Origin: Bacteroidales bacterium
GTDB lineage: Bacteria > Bacteroidota > Bacteroidia > Bacteroidales > F082
DNA length: 64,000 nt
Direction: 5' to 3'
Assembly: GCA_024400305.1 (NCBI GenBank)
Contig: JAKSMX010000011.1
Coordinates: forward strand, 1-64,000
Position numbers and translations under genes: made by a program. Within the stretch, counting starts at the first letter, position 1; the number at the start of each line of letters is the position of its first letter. Under the pieces are notes generated by a model. The model worked only from the letters and a program-made list of their open reading frames with translations. It searched no databases and was not told the origin of the DNA. Shown here piece by piece: positions 16,160-41,081 of the stretch.

Positions 16160-17842
16160 ATGTTTAAAGGTCATCCTAAAGGTCTGTATGCCTTGGCGTT
16201 AGCGAACACAGGCGAACGCTTCGGCTACTACACAATGCTTGCGATTTTCGTGTTGTTCCTGCAAGCGAAATTCGGTCTGGCGGCGGAGTCTGCCGGACAA
16301 CTGTACGGCGGTTTTCTCGCTGCCGTTTATTTCATGCCAATTGTCGGCGGTTTCATCGCCGATAAGTTCTGGGGTTACGGCAAGACTGTCGTCACCGGTA
16401 TCATCGTGATGTTTGTCGGCTACCTGCTTCTTCTTTTGCAGAAAGACGCTGTCGGCGGAATGGCGTTGACGATGATGATTGTCGCCTTGGTCTGCATCGC
16501 TGTCGGCACAGGACTTTTCAAAGGCAATCTTCAGGTCATGGTCGGAAATCTGTACGATGACCCGAAGTACGCAGCCAAGCGCGACGGCGGTTTCAGCCTG
16601 TTCTACATGGCAATCAACATCGGCTCGATGTTCGCGCCTACAACTGCCACTGCTGTCACAAATTCATTCCTCAGCAAGAGCGGTTTCACCTACGACGCCA
16701 ACATCCCGTCGCTGGCTCACCAGTTCCTTGACGGAACAATCACCGTTGACGGCATGACACGTCTTGAGACACTCGCAGCAAGCCAAAGCAGTTTCACAGG
16801 TGACATTACAACGTTCTGCAACAGTTATATCGATTCATTGTCAGTGGCTTACAGCTACGGATTCGGTGTTGCATGTCTGTCATTGATTTTGTCTATTGGC
16901 ATCTATTTCGGTTTCCGTCGCTTGTTCAAACATGTTGATGTCCGCAAAGATGCCAAAGCAGCGGCCGAGGAAAATGTCGTTGAACTCACACCGAAACAGA
17001 CGAAAGAACGCGTCGTGGCTCTCTGTCTCGTTTTCGCAGTCGTGATATTCTTCTGGATGGCGTTCCAGCAAGCCGGTCTTACATTGACATATTTCGCCCG
17101 CGACTACACCGCGTCAACCGCAACCGGCTGGACCAGAATCGGCTTCGATGTCTTCACACTCGCAATCATTGCGGTCGGCGTCTATGCGTTGTTCGGTTTA
17201 TTCCAAAGTGAAAATGGAAAAGGAAAGATTGTTTCAGCATTGATTCTCGCGCTGTGCGTGGCGGGTGTCTGGTACAAAGCCGCAAATGTTGAAGATACCG
17301 TCAACCTTCTCCCGCAGATTTTCCAGCATTTCAACCCGTTCTTTGTCGTTGCTTTGACGCCGGTCTCGATTGCGCTTTTCGGCGCATTAGCGAAGAAAGG
17401 CAAGGAGCCGTCGGCACCACGGAAAATCGCGTTGGGAATGTTGGTCGCGGCACTCGGTTACTGCGTGATGGCAGCCGCTTCGTTCGGGCTTCCTTCACCA
17501 AAGGAACTCGAAGTGACAGGCGGCGTGAGTAACATACTCGTGTCACCGAACTGGCTGATTTCCACGTATTTAGTTCTCACATTCGGCGAGCTTCTCCTCA
17601 GTCCGATGGGAATATCATTTGTGTCGAAAGTCGCACCTCCGAAACTCAAAGGCCTTATGATGGGCTTATGGTTCGGCGCCACGGCAATAGGCAACTACCT
17701 CACGTCGGTCATCAGTTCGATATGGAACACAGGACTCTCGCTCGTGATGATCTGGGGCGTGCTTATCATTCTCTGCGTGATTTCCGCGATATTCATGTTC
17801 GCAATGATGAAACGTCTCGAAAATGCAACGTCAGAATGCTGA
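16160..17842 (+). CDS. POT-family proton-coupled transporter (MFS)
   Basis: 560 residues with about twelve to fourteen membrane segments. The start MFKGHPKGLYALALANTGERFGYYTM is the POT signature region, followed by GGFIADKFWGYGKTV and FSLFYMAINIGSMFAPTTA. The canonical ExxER motif of helix 1 here reads NTGER, so the first acidic residue is Asn, while the second Glu and Arg are kept. POT proteins import di- and tripeptides with protons; the altered motif may mean different coupling or substrate. The gene follows the beta-galactosidase and its last 20 bases overlap the mazG-like gene. Confidence 0.88.
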   Translation: MFKGHPKGLYALALANTGERFGYYTMLAIFVLFLQAKFGLAAESAGQLYGGFLAAVYFMPIVGGFIADKFWGYGKTVVTGIIVMFVGYLLLLLQKDAVGGMALTMMIVALVCIAVGTGLFKGNLQVMVGNLYDDPKYAAKRDGGFSLFYMAINIGSMFAPTTATAVTNSFLSKSGFTYDANIPSLAHQFLDGTITVDGMTRLETLAASQSSFTGDITTFCNSYIDSLSVAYSYGFGVACLSLILSIGIYFGFRRLFKHVDVRKDAKAAAEENVVELTPKQTKERVVALCLVFAVVIFFWMAFQQAGLTLTYFARDYTASTATGWTRIGFDVFTLAIIAVGVYALFGLFQSENGKGKIVSALILALCVAGVWYKAANVEDTVNLLPQIFQHFNPFFVVALTPVSIALFGALAKKGKEPSAPRKIALGMLVAALGYCVMAAASFGLPSPKELEVTGGVSNILVSPNWLISTYLVLTFGELLLSPMGISFVSKVAPPKLKGLMMGLWFGATAIGNYLTSVISSIWNTGLSLVMIWGVLIILCVISAIFMFAMMKRLENATSEC

Positions 17843-18188
17843 AATAACGATTAAGGAAGCTCAAGAAATAGTGGATAACTGGATTAAGACAATCGGTGTC
17901 CGCTATTTCAATGAGCTTACAAATATGGCGATTCTCACCGAGGAAGTGGGGGAGGTGGCACGTATTATCGCTCGGACGTACGGCGAGCAGTCGTTCAAGG
18001 ATTCCGACAAAAGCCACGACCTCGGCGATGAGATGGCCGACGTGCTTTGGGTTTTGATTTGCTTGGCGAACCAGACCGGCGTTGACCTTACCGAGGCGTT
18101 TAGGAAAAACATAGAGAAAAAAACGTCGCGTGACGGCGAACGGCACAAAAACAACGAAAAATTGAAAACAGATTCAATTTCTGACTGA
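17823..18188 (+). CDS. MazG-like nucleotide pyrophosphohydrolase
   Basis: 121 residues, single-domain MazG fold. The metal-binding pattern is visible: Glu40, Glu41 and Glu44 in TEEVGEV, and Glu70 and Asp73 in GDEMADVLW. Family members hydrolyse NTPs to NMP and pyrophosphate, often as house-cleaning enzymes. The start overlaps the end of the POT gene by 20 bases, so translation is coupled. The hydrophilic C-terminal tail (RDGERHKNNEKLKTDSISD) is short. It is the last gene of this plus-strand run before the restriction-modification locus. Confidence 0.88.
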   Translation: MQRQNAEITIKEAQEIVDNWIKTIGVRYFNELTNMAILTEEVGEVARIIARTYGEQSFKDSDKSHDLGDEMADVLWVLICLANQTGVDLTEAFRKNIEKKTSRDGERHKNNEKLKTDSISD

Positions 18189-18195
18189 AAATAAT

Positions 18196-18203
18196 TATCT
18201 TTG
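18196..18203 (+). promoter_or_regulatory. -7 element before the DUF1016 / restriction locus
   Basis: TATCTTTG, an exact TANNTTTG match, only 8 bases after the mazG-like stop. It would give a leader of roughly 85 bases before the DUF1016 gene, containing the first 31 bp repeat. The -33 element is unclear. Confidence 0.5.
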
Positions 18204-18266
18204 CATCGAATTAAATAAATAAAAAATATTCATTAAATCGTTAAATATCAAATAATTAAATTTTTC

Positions 18267-18297
18267 AAACTAACATATTTTAAATCATAGCGTTTGC
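18267..18297. repeat. 31 bp direct repeat, left copy
   Basis: 31 bases ending in TAAATCATAGCGTTTGC, matching 19362-19392 at 29 of 31 positions. It ends immediately before the ATG of the DUF1016 gene. The two copies exactly bracket that gene. Confidence 0.9.
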
Positions 18298-19350
18298 ATG
18301 AGATTTGAAATGAAAGAAATAAACAACATAGTACAAAGCACGATTGACGCATCTTTTCTTGCCGAAGTGAAACACATCGTTGAACAAGGACGCCAACAAG
18401 CCTACACTTCTGTAAGTCGGCTGATGATAGAAACCTATTGGAAAATAGGCGAACGTATTGTGTTGCAAGAGCAAAAAGGAGCAAACCGTGCCGAATATGG
18501 AACTCAACTTATTTCGCAGCTTTCTGAAGAATTGACGCAAGCATACGGCAAGGGATTTAGTAAAAGAAACTTGCAGTATTTCCGTTCTTTTTACTTGACA
18601 TTCAGTGATTTGGAAATTGTGCAATCGCGATTGCACAATTTAACGTGGACTCATATTATTAAAACTTTACGAGTTGAGGATCCAACAGCCGTACGCTGGT
18701 ATCTATCAGCCGCTTCGCAAGAAATGTGGAGCGTTCGTACACTTGACAGAAACATCTCCACGCAATATTACGAGCGACATTTCAAGCAACCGAAATTGTT
18801 GGAAAACGAAACTAAGGATTCCATCCCCGATAAACTGGAACTTTTGAAAAGTCCCATCGTGGCAGAATTTCTTGGATTCAAGAAAGACGATTCCTATAGT
18901 GAAACAGAATTGGAAAGTGCCGTGATAAACCACTTGCAGGATTTCATCATGGAACTTGGTCGTGGTTTCGCTTTTATGGGACGTCAGGAATTGATAAGAA
19001 CAGCAAACAATGACTACTTTATAGATTTGGTGTTCTATAATGTAGTATTGAAATGTTATGTGCTTATAGATTTGAAAATAGGTAAAATAACACATCAGGA
19101 CGTTGGACAGATGGATATGTATGTTCGGATGTACGATGAACTGAAGTGTACGGAAGGCGACAATCCGACCATTGGCATTGTGTTGTGCAGTGAAACGGAT
19201 GCGGACATTGCAAAATATTCCATTCTGAAAGGCAATGAACAACTGTTCGCTTCAAAATATAAACTATATCTGCCTTCGGAAGAAGAACTCCGCAGGGAGA
19301 TAGAAGCACAAAAAGAATTGTTTAATTTACAAAATGATAAAATAAAGTAA
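18298..19350 (+). CDS. DUF1016/YhcG-family PDDEXK nuclease
   Basis: 350 residues. The N-terminal half is the helical DUF1016 domain (SRLMIETYWKIGERIVLQEQKG, YGKGFSKRNLQYFRSFYLTF, HIIKTLRVEDPTAVRWYL). The C-terminal half is a PDDEXK nuclease-type fold with Asp243 in FIDLVFYN and Asp258/Lys260 in LIDLKIGK, so catalytic residues appear intact. The ATG at 18298 directly follows the 31 bp repeat; a second ATG at 18310 is possible. Such proteins are often found inside restriction-modification loci, as here just before type III mod and res. A role in DNA defence is inferred from context. The flanking direct repeats suggest it entered the locus as a unit. Confidence 0.88.
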   Translation: MRFEMKEINNIVQSTIDASFLAEVKHIVEQGRQQAYTSVSRLMIETYWKIGERIVLQEQKGANRAEYGTQLISQLSEELTQAYGKGFSKRNLQYFRSFYLTFSDLEIVQSRLHNLTWTHIIKTLRVEDPTAVRWYLSAASQEMWSVRTLDRNISTQYYERHFKQPKLLENETKDSIPDKLELLKSPIVAEFLGFKKDDSYSETELESAVINHLQDFIMELGRGFAFMGRQELIRTANNDYFIDLVFYNVVLKCYVLIDLKIGKITHQDVGQMDMYVRMYDELKCTEGDNPTIGIVLCSETDADIAKYSILKGNEQLFASKYKLYLPSEEELRREIEAQKELFNLQNDKIK

Positions 19351-19361
19351 GAAAGAATTAT

Positions 19362-19392
19362 AAACTGACATATTATAAATCATAGCGTTTGC
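19362..19392. repeat. 31 bp direct repeat, right copy
   Basis: Right-hand partner of 18267-18297, starting 11 bases after the DUF1016 stop codon. It leads directly into the structured element that begins at 19414. Confidence 0.9.
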
Positions 19393-19413
19393 TATTTATT
19401 CGAGATGCCCTAA

Positions 19414-19547
19414 AAATTTGCCGATTCGAAAAGCATCACATTGAATAAGTTCAGTAAACGTTCGCGCTTAGCGTGGACGGAACTTATTGTGATGCGGGTT
19501 ACGGCAAATTTCCCAGGGCTCATAAGGAAAGTCCCGCTTTTTTTATG
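19414..19547 (+). ncRNA. Structured RNA element / attenuator-like leader of mod
   Basis: The transcript can fold into a long segmented hairpin: AAATTTGCCG (19414-19423) with CGGCAAATTT (19502-19511), GCATCAC (19433) with GTGATGC (19489-19495), AATAAGTTC (19444-19452) with GAACTTATT (19480-19488), and an inner stem CGTTCGCGC-TTA-GCGTGGACG. Directly after it a short stem GGGCT/AGTCCC and a run of seven T (to about 19547) look like an intrinsic terminator. A third arm at 19555-19587 can replace the 5' strand (see findings). No protein-coding signal is convincing across it. It may be a small RNA or an attenuator controlling mod and res. Confidence 0.6.
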
Positions 19548-19598
19548 TCCAAAGAAATTTGCCACCCGCATTCTCGTAATAAGTTGCAAAGGCTGAAA

Positions 19599-21671
19599 AT
19601 GCAAATGCCGATGAAACTATACGAAACATTATGCACCCAGCTCAAAAAGGAAAACAACTTTGTGAGCGACAATGGCGAATTGAAAAAATGGGTTGTGGCC
19701 GACAAGGCTCGCAACTACGATGCCGGACTTCTTGCTCTTCTTCTTGAAAACGAAGACCTGAAAAATATTTTTTTCAAAGACATTAACGGCACATTGGTTT
19801 TTCTTCTTGAGCAATTTCTGCTTTTCATAGAACAGAAAAACTATCTGAACGACAGCTATACAAGCTATCGCAACAAAATCGGACTGGCCATTGGCGGAAA
19901 GTTCCTCAACCAACGCAATGAGGTGGAACTTGTTTGGCCTTACAAGGATTGCATTCTCGAAGGCGGACAAACCAAGGAAGACCAGAAACGCCCCGAAATT
20001 TTCTTTAACCAGACTTTGGCACAGGATGAAATCACGCAACTGCTCGACCCCAAGGTGCTGACCAATGCGAAACGATATGGTACAGACGGTGCGCATATCG
20101 TCTCTGCATTCACCCGCGACGCAGAATTGAACCGTAAACGCGGACTGCCCGAAAACACCATTACCGACAATCTGATTATCAAAGGCAACAACCTTTTGGC
20201 ACTTCATTCTCTCAAAAAGGAATTTGCCGGCAAAGTGAAACTGATTTACATTGACCCGCCGTACAATACGGGTAACGATTCTTTTGGATATAACGATAGT
20301 TTCAATCATTCCACTTGGCTGACTTTTATGAAAAATCGGCTGGAAGTGGCAAGAACACTGCTTAAAGATGATGGGGCTATTTTTGTGCAAATTGATCACC
20401 ATGAACTTGCATATATTATGGTTCTTTTGGATGAAATTTATGGTATTCACAACAAAGTACAAGTAATTGCGGTAAAGACGGCTTCTGTTTCGGGTTTTAA
20501 AGCTGTCAATCCAGGTCCAATTGATGTGACTGAATATATTTTGTTTTACACTAAAGACAAAACAAAATTTAATTTTAGGAAAAATTATGTTCCAATGGGA
20601 TACAATAAAAATTACAACAAGTATCTTGAGAAACATAATTCAGAAAATCCTGATAAATGGGAATTTATACCAATAAAAGACAAACTCCTTATGTCTTTAG
20701 GAAAAACAGAAAAAGAATTGAAAGTACAATTTGGATTAGTTTATAATGTGGCAATAGATTCAATGATTGCACAATATGCATATGAAAATGCAGATAAGAT
20801 AATAAGTGTTAGAGATTTGCATAAACCAACCGATAAGATAAAAGAACTACAAAGATTATCGAAAATAAATCGTGACAAAATTTACACATACGAAAAAGTC
20901 GATGGCGGAAAAACATACATAATAAATGGTGGAGCTATTGCATTTTATAGTAGCAAACTTCAAATTATTGATGGAGAAAAATGTGTTACCGAATTATTGT
21001 CTGATTTTTGGAATCATGTCTCATGGGCAGGAATTGCTGGAGAAGGCCAAATCACTTTCAAAAATGCCAAGAAACCAGAGAAGTTAATCAAACAAATATT
21101 TGAAATTGCTTCCTCAGATTCCGACATCGTTCTCGATTTCTTTGGCGGCTCAGGCACAACAGCTGCGGTTGCTCACAAAATGAATCGTCAATATATCAGT
21201 TGCGAGCAGATTGACAGTCAAATGGATTTGATAACAAATCGTCTTCAAAACGTCATCAACGGCGACCAATCGGGCATCAGCAAATCCGTTTCTTGGAACC
21301 CGCAAAATCCGTCATTGGAAGACAGTGCAAACGGTCGTTACGAACGCAACAACTTTATCTATTTAGAACTCAAGAAATACAATCAGGCATTTATTGAAAA
21401 AATTGAAGAGGCAGACTCTTCGGAAAAACTTCTGGAAATCTGGGAACTGATGAAGGAAAAATCTTTCCTCAACTACAATGTGGACATCAAAACGCAGGAA
21501 GCGAACATCGAAGAGTTCAAGCAATTGGAGTTGGAGCAGCAAAAGCAGGTGCTTTGCGAATTGTTGGACAAAAACCAACTCTATGTGAATGTGAGCGATA
21601 TGAACGACGGGCGTTTTGCCACAACTGAAGAAGAAAAGAATGTGACCCAAGCGTTTTATTCTAATTTGTAA
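19599..21671 (+). CDS. mod: Type III restriction-modification DNA methyltransferase (Mod)
   Basis: 690 residues from the ATG at 19599 (MQMPMKLYETLC; ATGs at 19605 and 19611 are equally possible). The frame stays open upstream to 19473, but that part is the structured element and is not expected to be coding. Motif IV DPPYNTG begins at Asp219 and motif I DFFGGSG begins at Asp513; this order is that of beta-class N6-adenine methyltransferases, as in type III Mod subunits. The region between motifs (~250-500) is AT-rich and would hold the target-recognition domain. Mod alone methylates one strand and is required by Res for restriction. The res gene starts 6 bases downstream. Confidence 0.93.
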   Translation: MQMPMKLYETLCTQLKKENNFVSDNGELKKWVVADKARNYDAGLLALLLENEDLKNIFFKDINGTLVFLLEQFLLFIEQKNYLNDSYTSYRNKIGLAIGGKFLNQRNEVELVWPYKDCILEGGQTKEDQKRPEIFFNQTLAQDEITQLLDPKVLTNAKRYGTDGAHIVSAFTRDAELNRKRGLPENTITDNLIIKGNNLLALHSLKKEFAGKVKLIYIDPPYNTGNDSFGYNDSFNHSTWLTFMKNRLEVARTLLKDDGAIFVQIDHHELAYIMVLLDEIYGIHNKVQVIAVKTASVSGFKAVNPGPIDVTEYILFYTKDKTKFNFRKNYVPMGYNKNYNKYLEKHNSENPDKWEFIPIKDKLLMSLGKTEKELKVQFGLVYNVAIDSMIAQYAYENADKIISVRDLHKPTDKIKELQRLSKINRDKIYTYEKVDGGKTYIINGGAIAFYSSKLQIIDGEKCVTELLSDFWNHVSWAGIAGEGQITFKNAKKPEKLIKQIFEIASSDSDIVLDFFGGSGTTAAVAHKMNRQYISCEQIDSQMDLITNRLQNVINGDQSGISKSVSWNPQNPSLEDSANGRYERNNFIYLELKKYNQAFIEKIEEADSSEKLLEIWELMKEKSFLNYNVDIKTQEANIEEFKQLELEQQKQVLCELLDKNQLYVNVSDMNDGRFATTEEEKNVTQAFYSNL

Positions 21672-21677
21672 CAAACT

Positions 21678-24251
21678 ATGCCACAGCAATTTCTATACGA
21701 ACAATTCAATGTGCTCTCGCAATTCGGAGCAATCAGTCACGAGTTGCCAAACTGCATAAAAAGCAATATTAAACCACAATTTGAGTTGCGCCCATATCAG
21801 ACGGAAGCATTCTGCCGTATGATTTATTTTCTGAAAAACGATTTCGACGGCAAACAAAACCGTCCGTATCATTTGCTTTTCAATATGGCCACAGGCAGCG
21901 GCAAGACCATGATAATGGCTGGTGCCATGCTTTATTTGTACGAGCAAGGCTACCGCAATTTCCTGTTTTTCGTCAACTCAAACAACATCATCCAGAAAAC
22001 AAAAGACAATTTTCTGAATGCCAACACGGGCAAATATCTTTTTGCGGAGAAAATTATTTTTGGAGGAAACGAAATCGCTGTGCACGAAGTGGAAACATTC
22101 GACGAGTCGGATGATAAAAACATCAACATCAAGTTCACCACCATTCAGCAATTGCATATTGATTTGAACAGCACTAAAGAAAATGCGCTCACATACGAAG
22201 ACTTTCAAAACAAGAAAATCGTGCTGATTGCCGACGAAGCCCATCATCTGAATGCAGGAACAAGACAAGGCGAAATGTTCGGAACATTTGAAGATACTGT
22301 ACAGAAAATCCACGAACAGAATTACGACAACATTTTGCTTGAGTTCACCGCAACAGCGGACTATGAGGACTCGAACATCAAAACCAAATACCTGAACAAA
22401 GTGCTGTTCCGCTACGATTTGGCGGAGTTTCGCAAGGACGGATATTCAAAGGAAATCAATCTTCTCCGTTCGCAATTCGATGAAAAGAACCGCATCATTC
22501 AGGCATTGATTTTAAATCTTTACCGTCAGGAGTTGGCGACATCGCACAATATAAACTTAAAACCTGTTATTCTTTTCAAGGCAAAAAAGACCATTGCAGA
22601 AAACAATCGCAACAAAGAGAATTTTCACGAACTGATAGAAGGTCTTACTGCAACAGAAATAGACGAAGTTCGCAACAATCAACAAATAAAGATTCTGAAC
22701 AAAGCGTTTTCGTTTTTTGATGCAAAAGGCGTTGACAGCAACGAAATTGTAAAACGGTTGCAATCAAATTTCAAACCCGAAAATTGTCTCAGTGCTAACG
22801 ATAACGAACTGGAAAAGAATCAGATATTGCTCAACACGCTTGAAGACGAAAATAATCCTATACGTGCCATTTTTGCAGTGCAGAAACTCAATGAAGGCTG
22901 GGACGTGCTGAATCTTTTCGACATTGTGCGTATGTACGAAGGTCAGAATACCGGCGGAAGCAATAAAGGAAAGATTGGGACAACAACAATTTCAGAAGCG
23001 CAACTTATCGGTCGTGGCGCAAGATACTATCCGTTTGCGTTGGAAAAAGGGCAGAACAAATTCACCCGCAAATTTGACAGCGACATCGACAACGACATGA
23101 AAGTTTTGGAAGAACTTTACTATCACACAAAAGAAGACAGCCGTTACATTTCAGAACTCAAGAAAGCACTTGTGGAGACTGGTATATATGAAGATGAAGA
23201 CGATTTTGTGGAAAAAGAATTGAAATTGAAAGAGTCGTTCAAACAAACGGATTTTTACAAGAATGCCAAAGTTTTTTACAATCTAAAAATTGAAAAATCC
23301 CATGATAAAGTAAAATCACTCAAAGACTTGAATGTAAGGAAAACAAATATTGAATTTACGCTATCATCGGGAAAAGGCGCAGTGACCAATGTTTGGGATG
23401 ATACGGAAACAACATCATCAGAAACTTCATTGAACGAACGTAAAAGCATCACAATTTCGCAAATGCCTTACCATGTCGTGCGTTATGCACTGACAACCAA
23501 CCCTTTTTTCTATTTCAACAACCTGCAAAAGTATTGTCCGAAAATAAAATCCTCAGATGATTTCATTTCTGAAGAAGACTATTTGGGAGGATTTGGTGTT
23601 ACTTTTATTGGAGACAAACAGCATATCGAAAAAATCACAAATGCCGATTATTTGCAAGCCTTGAAAATCCTTTTGAAAAGCATTGAAACGGAGATTAAGC
23701 AAAATGATGCTGAATATGAAGGATCGGATTTCACCTACGGAAAACTGTACGAAAAATTCACCGACAAGAAACTGCATATCAACAAGAAAGTGAACGAAGA
23801 ACGCACTAAAGGACAAGAAGATTTCTTAGCAGACAAAGACTGGTACGCCTATAATGCGAACTATGGCACAAGCGAAGAAAAGAAGTTCGTGGAAATGTTC
23901 GCTGGGCGTTTTAGTAATTTGCAGGAAAATTTCAGTGACATTTACCTGATTCGTAACGAACAAGTGTTAAAGATATATGATGAGATAGGACGTGCTTTCG
24001 AGCCGGATTTTGTTCTTTTCTGCAAAAGAAAAACAGGCGAAGAACAGGTTTTGCAGGTTTTCATTGAACCGAAAGGCGGACATTTGGAAAGCAAGGACAA
24101 GTGGAAAGAAGAATTTCTCAACAAAATTCGAGAAAAGAAATTGACATTTGAATCGAACCATTATCGGATTACAGGCGTACCATTTTATAATTACGCTAAT
24201 GAAAATAATTTTGTCAATGAATTAAATTCCGTTTTGGATGTTTGTAATTAG
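21678..24251 (+). CDS. res: Type III restriction endonuclease helicase/nuclease subunit (Res)
   Basis: 857 residues. SF2 helicase motifs: Walker A ATGSGKT at 71-77, DEAH at 186-189, TATADY, and motif VI LIGRGARYYPF. The C-terminal nuclease has the type III Res pattern: Asp777 in FEPDFVLF, then Glu797 and Lys799 in IEPKGG. All catalytic positions look intact, so the enzyme is probably active. With Mod it forms an ATP-dependent complex that cleaves DNA near paired unmethylated sites. It starts 6 bases after mod. The gene ends before a stem that also serves the convergent arginine deiminase gene. Confidence 0.93.
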   Translation: MPQQFLYEQFNVLSQFGAISHELPNCIKSNIKPQFELRPYQTEAFCRMIYFLKNDFDGKQNRPYHLLFNMATGSGKTMIMAGAMLYLYEQGYRNFLFFVNSNNIIQKTKDNFLNANTGKYLFAEKIIFGGNEIAVHEVETFDESDDKNINIKFTTIQQLHIDLNSTKENALTYEDFQNKKIVLIADEAHHLNAGTRQGEMFGTFEDTVQKIHEQNYDNILLEFTATADYEDSNIKTKYLNKVLFRYDLAEFRKDGYSKEINLLRSQFDEKNRIIQALILNLYRQELATSHNINLKPVILFKAKKTIAENNRNKENFHELIEGLTATEIDEVRNNQQIKILNKAFSFFDAKGVDSNEIVKRLQSNFKPENCLSANDNELEKNQILLNTLEDENNPIRAIFAVQKLNEGWDVLNLFDIVRMYEGQNTGGSNKGKIGTTTISEAQLIGRGARYYPFALEKGQNKFTRKFDSDIDNDMKVLEELYYHTKEDSRYISELKKALVETGIYEDEDDFVEKELKLKESFKQTDFYKNAKVFYNLKIEKSHDKVKSLKDLNVRKTNIEFTLSSGKGAVTNVWDDTETTSSETSLNERKSITISQMPYHVVRYALTTNPFFYFNNLQKYCPKIKSSDDFISEEDYLGGFGVTFIGDKQHIEKITNADYLQALKILLKSIETEIKQNDAEYEGSDFTYGKLYEKFTDKKLHINKKVNEERTKGQEDFLADKDWYAYNANYGTSEEKKFVEMFAGRFSNLQENFSDIYLIRNEQVLKIYDEIGRAFEPDFVLFCKRKTGEEQVLQVFIEPKGGHLESKDKWKEEFLNKIREKKLTFESNHYRITGVPFYNYANENNFVNELNSVLDVCN

Positions 24252-40885: not shown

Positions 40886-40972
40886 GCCCAGGTGGTGAAA
40901 TTGGTAGACACGCTACTTTGAGGGGGTAGTGACGAATGCGTCATGCAAGTTCGACTCTTGTCCTGGGCACCA
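40886..40972 (+). tRNA. tRNA-Leu (anticodon GAG)
   Basis: 87 bases. Acceptor stem GCCCAGG/CCTGGGC, D-arm with AATTGGTAGACACGC, anticodon arm CTACT-TTGAGGG-GGTAG giving GAG, a class II variable arm (TGACGAATGCGTCA), T-arm CAAGTTCGACTCTTG, and an encoded CCA end. It reads CUU/CUC leucine codons. Confidence 0.95.
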
Positions 40973-40997
40973 AACGAAATCCAAGAATTTCGACATC

Positions 40998-41081
40998 GCC
41001 CATGTGGTGAAATTGGTAAACACGCTACATTCAGGGTGTAGTGAGCGGACGCTCTTGGAAGTTCGAGTCTTCTCATGGGCA
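40998..41081 (+). tRNA. tRNA-Leu (anticodon CAG)
   Basis: 84 bases to the discriminator A. Acceptor stem GCCCATG/CATGGGC, anticodon arm CTACA-TTCAGGG-TGTAG giving CAG, variable arm GAGCGGACGCTC, T-arm GAAGTTCGAGTCTTC. Unlike its neighbour, the CCA end is not encoded (the sequence reads ACAAAG). It reads CUG leucine codons and shares the transcript of the GAG tRNA. Confidence 0.95.

Follow-up and report, generated by a model that had tools for sequence, protein, structure and literature searches.

A conserved multi-copy leader RNA with coevolving, mutually exclusive helices, a probable regulator of restriction-modification genes in Bacteroidales

We describe a conserved, multi-copy leader RNA whose mutually exclusive helices coevolve and which, in the loci collected by a 22-base motif of its 5' hairpin, lies mainly ahead of restriction-modification (R-M) genes. 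It probably acts in cis, controlling the downstream R-M operon through transcription termination, followed by another step of refolding in the mRNA that is read through. The copy from which the analysis started is found in a stretch of 64,000 nucleotides of a Bacteroidales genome (hereafter the window), flanked by a DUF1016/YhcG nuclease gene (18298-19350) and a type III mod-res operon.

The leader in the window

The element spans 19381-19594 on the forward strand, based on a match of 200 bits (E 2.6e-44) to the covariance model R1, which was built from 12 aligned leaders with the window copy among them. A preliminary description of this DNA had proposed three arms, and all of the blocks named there are in place: AAATTTGCCG (19414-19423), GCATCAC (19433-19439) and AATAAGTTC (19444-19452) in the upstream arm; GAACTTATT (19480-19488), GTGATGCGGGT (19489-19499) and GGCAAATTT (19503-19511) in the 3' strand of the first hairpin; AAATTTGCC (19555-19563), ACCCGCAT (19564-19571) and AATAAGTT (19578-19585) in the downstream arm. 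The arms are thus real, but the true element is larger than had been described, with a hairpin at its 5' end. A promoter motif for the leader was not recognised. The parts of the window copy and of the operon behind it are as follows (all on the + strand; the evidence is given in brackets):

19381..19594, whole leader RNA (covariance-model match)
19382..19395, 5' hairpin H1, ATAGC-GTTT-GCTAT (sequence; the 22-mer around H1 is present in 117 genome stretches)
Strand of H1, alternative pairing P1 with the stretch ahead of the start codon (P1 enriched in members with a strong arm 3)
19406..19422, arm 1, partner of arm 2 (fold energy, compensatory changes, own-versus-mixed pair test)
19444..19467, strand a, 5' side of the central hairpin P2 (fold energy; RNAalifold)
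19471..19488, strand b, 3' side of P2, partner of a (putative antiterminator) or of c (putative terminator)
19489..19520, variable strand and arm 2, partner of arm 1 or arm 3 (folds; own-versus-mixed pair test)
19521..19544, strand c and T7, 3' half of a putative intrinsic terminator (b:c duplex; family test)
19555..19585, arm 3, predicted to pair with arm 2 and lower b after read-through (folds; own-versus-mixed pair test)
19611..21671, type III mod (ORF; Pfam N6_N4_Mtase, TypeIII_RM_meth)
21678..24251, type III res (ORF; Pfam ResIII)

The two exclusive folds that had been proposed are both borne out: the arm1:arm2 fold (19405-19515) has an energy of -41.8 kcal/mol (z -5.6) and that of arm2:arm3 (19475-19610) one of -52.1 kcal/mol (z -5.3), none of 200 dinucleotide shuffles was as good in either case, and both pairings coevolve in the family. 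At full length the 1:2 and 2:3 states of the window copy are nearly equal (-89.8 vs -90.1 kcal/mol). In the 1:2 centroid fold the stretch GGGTTA (19496-19501) stays unpaired; in the 2:3 fold its GGGT is joined to arm 3. Concerning the terminator-like stem with T7, the T7 is present at 19538-19544, but a consensus scan of 18200-20200 contained no canonical terminator and the local hairpin of the window copy takes the U-run itself into pairing.

The ORF that contains mod opens with GTG at 19473 and crosses the leader, and its frame also holds ATG codons at 19599, 19605 and 19611. Because the same leader precedes unrelated genes, the extension from GTG 19473 most likely reads through non-coding leader, and for the same reason a mod protein extended through 19473-19598 was rejected. 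The start at 19611 is preferred, with 19599 and 19605 also in frame. In line with the earlier warning that a gene caller could wrongly extend mod, the leader illustrates the risk of a gene being extended into non-coding sequence.

Distribution of the leader family

A plain DNA search gave matches in 22 of the 173 genomes of the family; the window's own genome is counted here, and so are some short matches (L015-L023), which were left out of later work. With R1, matches are found in 83 of these 173 genomes (E <= 0.01) and in 89 out of a sample of 393 from the order, the own genome being included in both counts. Across a sample of the phylum, eight of 296 genomes were matched at E <= 0.001; these are the window's own and seven of the same class, not of the same order. 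The window's genome contains seven copies (C3, which is the window copy, C1, C45, C9, C56, C14 and C23).

The loci collected by the 22-mer were analysed in the 80 listed (L142-L221) of the 117 stretches. All 80 are from Bacteroidota, including Porphyromonas, Prevotella, Alloprevotella and Parabacteroides, and an R1 element lies at the motif in every one of them, three being cut by the end of the stretch and one being weak (22 bits). The exact 22-mer was found in 0 viral contigs, and distant searches of plasmids (two members as query) and phages (one member) gave no match; on these grounds a phage or plasmid element was rejected.

For the family tests, 206 aligned R1 matches were reduced to 195 of at least 190 nt and then to 122 by dropping similar sequences. 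The next ORF, defined as the first with 100 aa or more that is reached within 500 nt when both strands are considered, is on the same strand as the leader in 115/122 members and on the opposite strand in one (L127), while in six none fits in the remaining DNA. The distance is also regular: 100 of 116 same-strand ORFs begin -40 to +60 nt from the model end.

A comparison of the window (16160-24251) with genome G086 (L002) shows a transporter gene that is 96% identical and a leader that is 95% identical, followed by different genes. Beside the transporter the window carries MazG, the DUF1016/YhcG nuclease, the leader and the type III system; G086 carries the leader and then a methyltransferase-type gene. 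Defence genes appear to have been swapped here behind a kept leader.

Genes behind the leader

Looking at the first genes of at least 150 aa in the 22-mer loci (80 listed of 117), the methyltransferase motif [NDS]PP[YFW] is present in 42/73, against 1/205 upstream or other-strand genes of the same loci (Fisher p 1e-28; counts and p not de-duplicated). Two elements among those counted (L158:3340-3554 and L213:2020-2239) do not lie at the 22-mer, and both are without the motif. After de-duplication to 53 protein clusters the motif remains in 28 representatives, and the Pfam domains of the 53 are, in overlapping counts, N6_N4_Mtase (11), N6_Mtase (8), HSDR_N_2 (6), EcoRI_methylase (5), Eco57I (4), DNA_methylase (3), MethyltransfD12 (3) and ResIII (2). 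Ten of the 25 motif-negative representatives, picked by eye as likely defence genes, were scanned singly. Models of restriction, methyltransferase or DISARM type are matched by seven of them (L185, L206, L149, L189, L213, L162 and L155) and not by the other three (L205, L221 and L147). Both the model and the 22-mer derive from R-M-preceding members, so the share of R-M genes in the family as a whole may be overstated.

The best relatives from the plain DNA search have the same leader ahead of unrelated genes, which by eye are methyltransferases of several types. By reading, four of the seven copies in the window's genome have as their first genes the type III mod, an adenine-type methyltransferase, a C5 methylase and a zinc-ribbon gene with a GmrSD-like gene behind it. 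The first genes of the other three copies (G000:C14:17396-17613, G000:C23:52725-52926 and G000:C56:54414-54627) code for small proteins of 78-106 aa that read like HTH regulators; such genes are a second recurrent class behind the leader. Genes other than those of defence are found as well, namely for secreted, surface and small HTH or regulatory proteins, so that the leader is not confined to R-M systems. Outside the order, three relatives (L263, L265 and L271) have SusC/TonB-receptor-like ORFs, by reading, that start 184-445 nt past the element.

Coevolution of the pairings

The preliminary description had called for a covariation check of the arms in homologues, and compensatory changes are present in both folds. 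In each test on the 122 members, the duplex formed by a member's own strands was compared with duplexes of strands mixed between members. For arm1 x arm2 the own pairs have a mean of -39.3 kcal/mol and the mixed ones -18.6; for arm2 x arm3 the means are -30.4 and -21.2; permutations reached the own value in 0/10000 cases for either. The own arm 1 ranks in the best 1% for 118/122 members, the own arm 3 in the best 5% for only 54/122, because some of the family lack arm 3 or have only a weak one.

A third pairing, missing from the preliminary description, joins the 3' strand of the central hairpin (b) to the stretch before the U-run (c). Here too the own duplexes are stronger than the mixed ones (-20.7 against -16.0 kcal/mol; permutations 0/10000), the result is also 0/10000 within each of the strong, middle and weak arm 3 groups defined below, and the own c is in the best 5% for 46/122 members. 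Negative controls (arm2 x 60 nt upstream, arm2 x ORF and b x ORF) gave no own-pair effect in a comparison of 98 of the 122 members, in which arm2 x arm3 reaches z -19 and b x c z -17.

RNAalifold on the twelve leaders recovers the pairing of arm 1 with arm 2, including pairs in which both sides have changed. In the arm2-arm3 alignments such pairs occur in both subfamilies, with a short consensus (11 and 17 pairs) from variable stems that MAFFT aligned only roughly. On the leader strand the cells of consensus pairs hold 389 G-U and 94 A-C combinations, an excess as expected of an RNA from that strand, although the count rests on a structure inferred on the same strand and leans towards it.

Terminator and antiterminator states

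In bacterial transcription attenuators and transcriptional riboswitches, an antiterminator and a terminator with its U-run exclude each other upstream of a gene. The leader has the same layout: two mutually exclusive helices, a:b and b:c, of which the second is directly ahead of a U-run and the first is part of the coevolving arm1:arm2 hairpin, in the 5' leader of the next gene. A run of T4 or longer follows c in 105/122 members, the other 17 having no T4 run. Strand c folded alone reaches a mean of only -3.0 to -4.8 kcal/mol by group, and for this reason and because of the empty consensus scan a local hairpin was rejected as the main terminator.

Based on a rough sum of constrained folds, the a:b state is favoured over the b:c state by a mean of 2.7 kcal/mol (sd 5.8) among the 122 members; the two are within 5 kcal/mol in 66/122 and the terminator state is the lower one in 38/122. 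For the window copy, the b:c duplex (-16.4 kcal/mol) is weaker than the family average and the antiterminator state leads by 9.8 kcal/mol, a result that speaks against a balanced attenuator at this locus, barring a factor that blocks arm 1 or a; all energies given here leave out pseudoknots and co-transcriptional kinetics. Closed ATG-started frames of at least 8 codons are rarer in the leaders (42/122) than in their shuffles (86/122; one shuffle each), so attenuation by a trp-type leader peptide is unlikely and was rejected.

The third arm

The preliminary description had seen the exchange among arms 1, 2 and 3 as the switch, with the terminator in the loop of the second fold. Arm 3 is made only after the U-run, so it cannot decide termination and can act only on the mRNA that is read through; this part of the proposal has to be given up. 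Members without arm 3 keep a, b, c and the U-run.

The arm2 x arm3 duplexes vary in energy between -50 and -7 kcal/mol. Among the members with an ORF, arm 3 was called strong at <= -32 kcal/mol (59 members), weak above -22 (33) and middle in the other 24. The methyltransferase motif is found downstream in 30/59 members of the strong group vs 2/33 of the weak one (Fisher p 8e-6). The strong group contains N6_N4_Mtase (14), EcoRI_methylase (7), N6_Mtase (7) and MethyltransfD12 (6), the weak group N6_N4_Mtase, EcoRI_methylase and DNA_methylase (one each) and GmrSD_N (two); the middle group is methyltransferase-rich as well. Arm 3 is thus a mark of the restriction-modification members.

Over the 116 members compared by group, 2:3 is the stabler of the two folds in 54/59 strong members (median -9.3 kcal/mol) and in 4/33 weak ones; the groups were set by the members' own arm2 x arm3 energy, so these differences in energy are partly circular, and the association with genes is not. 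The pairing P1, between the 5' strand and the 55 nt that lead up to the start codon, is stronger than in shuffles by a margin above 3 kcal/mol in 46/57 strong, 17/23 middle and 7/30 weak members (110 in this part). When the 5' strand and the start region are included, the 2:3 state is lower in 43 of the 51 strong members (out of the 59 with an ORF) that entered this test. The mean unpaired probability of the start region in these 51 is 0.48 in the 1:2 state and 0.44 in the 2:3 state (p 0.03), and the region from -35 to -18 is more closed in 2:3 (0.26 vs 0.36, p 1e-4). These values lend weak support to a translational role of arm 3; sequestration of the start codon as a clean difference between the folds was rejected, the effect being small.

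Proposed mechanism and alternatives

The earlier reading as a riboregulator or attenuator of a restriction system agrees well with the compensatory changes in both folds and with the place of the leader before several R-M types, the regulation itself being deduced from these. Going by the coevolving pairings, in the nascent RNA b would pair with a in the central hairpin, backed by arm1:arm2, and the polymerase would pass; alternatively b would pair with c just ahead of the U-run, which would lead to termination. In the window copy, termination would need a factor that blocks arm 1 or a. In the members that precede R-M genes, a polymerase beyond the U-run would make arm 3, which may then take arm 2 from arm 1 and so lock or silence the read-through message. 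The third fold would be fixed in the mRNA leader near the start codon, where translation or mRNA decay could be set separately.

A different order of importance is given by a hok-like refolding timer, in which the nascent 1:2 fold gives a pulse of translation or protects the message, the later and stabler 2:3 fold silences it, and termination is minor. It agrees with the greater stability of 2:3 in strong members (54/59, and 43/51 with the start region), with arm 3 being the last part to be transcribed and with the lead of 9.8 kcal/mol that the window copy already gives to the antiterminator state. Against it, the start region is about equally open in both states, the full-length states of the window copy are almost equal in energy, and arm 3 does not belong to the core of the family, its absence leaving a, b, c and the U-run in place; we consider this timer unlikely as the main function.

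Two further explanations would separate the element from the control of its neighbour. A free-standing small RNA with its own terminator, acting in trans and encoded before these genes by chance, fits the U-run after c (105/122) and the several copies per genome (seven in that of the window). Such an RNA had been offered in the preliminary description as an option, and it has become quite improbable, as leader and next ORF share a strand in 115/122 members, arm 3 coevolves with arm 2 although it lies 3' of the U-run, and the stems vary between copies, so that a common trans target is not obvious. An element acting as DNA, with inverted repeats for recombination or protein binding that travel with defence cassettes swapped at shared loci, would explain the near-identical leaders before different genes beside the shared transporter gene of the window and G086, but not the excess of G-U over A-C in the stems, the U-run, the fixed orientation towards the gene or the coevolving b:c pairing; we regard it as very improbable. 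The preferred reading is that of a cis-acting leader in which b:c would terminate, a:b would prevent termination and arm 3 would act on the read-through mRNA.

A wider proposal, which is tentative and which we hold to be possible rather than probable, is that of a new Bacteroidales-centred class of signal-sensing leaders, mainly for R-M and related defence genes of several types, that would tie expression to a common cellular or infection signal, with the arm 3 step being specific to these potentially self-toxic operons. R-M operons need a safe switch-on in a new host, and the leader looks like a hitherto unrecognised RNA control that is shared among bacterial systems of defence against foreign DNA. 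If true, type I, II and III systems and other defence genes would have a common, portable control layer in the immunity of gut and rumen Bacteroidales, and the exclusive helices, with compensatory mutants, offer a direct handle on the signal.

Comparison with known systems

By kind, the leader appears to be attenuator-like; as a family it appears new, with arm 3 as an unusual addition. It shares with attenuators and riboswitches the choice between a:b and b:c with a U-run ahead of the gene, at energies that are close on the family average. It differs from them in that one leader architecture is found ahead of many unrelated gene families, and in the extra arm beyond the U-run, mostly in R-M-preceding members. 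Known controls of R-M systems also include C proteins and promoter methylation.

In Rfam 15 at the gathering score, the whole window gave only two tRNAs and none over the element (the two tRNA genes lie at 40886-41081, about 30 nt apart), 37 other distinct loci gave nothing over the core, and a permissive scan (E up to 1) of eight loci gave three weak matches, none on the core. The nearest entries are DUF805 (RF03081) and DUF805b (RF02914), which Rfam types as Cis-reg, a point in common with the role proposed for the leader; the DUF805 RNA reportedly comes from a 2017 study. Three members whose third arm is weak carry a DUF805b match at their 3' end (L051 1486-1521, L071 1605-1641 and L084 1398-1433), but the matches to these entries cover 35-68 positions, all of them where the core ends on its 3' side or beyond, and window positions 19300-19700 have no match to any Rfam family, these two included, even at E up to 5. 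In L071, DUF805 is also found 3' of DUF805b, inside the ORF assigned as its gene, and that ORF is doubtful.

FopS of Bacteroides thetaiotaomicron, in the part of its description consulted, has a single-stranded 5' stretch and a terminator and acts in trans on SusC mRNAs (PMC11697453). Like the leader it is a multi-copy Bacteroidota RNA, with an intrinsic terminator where ours is putative; the leader is set apart from that description by its strongly folded 5' part and by preceding its gene (PMC11697453). EcoRI and Eco29kI are controlled by reverse promoters and antisense RNAs which, like the leader in our proposal, govern the expression of a potentially toxic restriction system (PMC3874152). 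In the accessible portion of that review of R-M control the term 'riboswitch' is absent and 'attenuat' occurs once (PMC3874152), and the portions seen of PMC9723704, PMC8040213 (a large motif survey) and PMC2864571 name no such element. Among the open literature, screened by title and start of abstract, nothing was recognised as this leader; subscription papers and the supplements of surveys could mention it.

Sequences next to the start codon

In five members with no third arm (L076, L081, L072, L270 and L273), a GGGACU-like stretch before the gene complements, by eye, the AGUCCC-like sequence of c; in L273 the two are AAACCC and GGGUUU, an apparent covariation by eye in this pairing. In L108 and L114, a short hairpin (AATACGC...GCGTAT, by eye) runs into the start codon of an EcoRI-type methyltransferase, and a tail hairpin adjoining the start codon may be a common feature.
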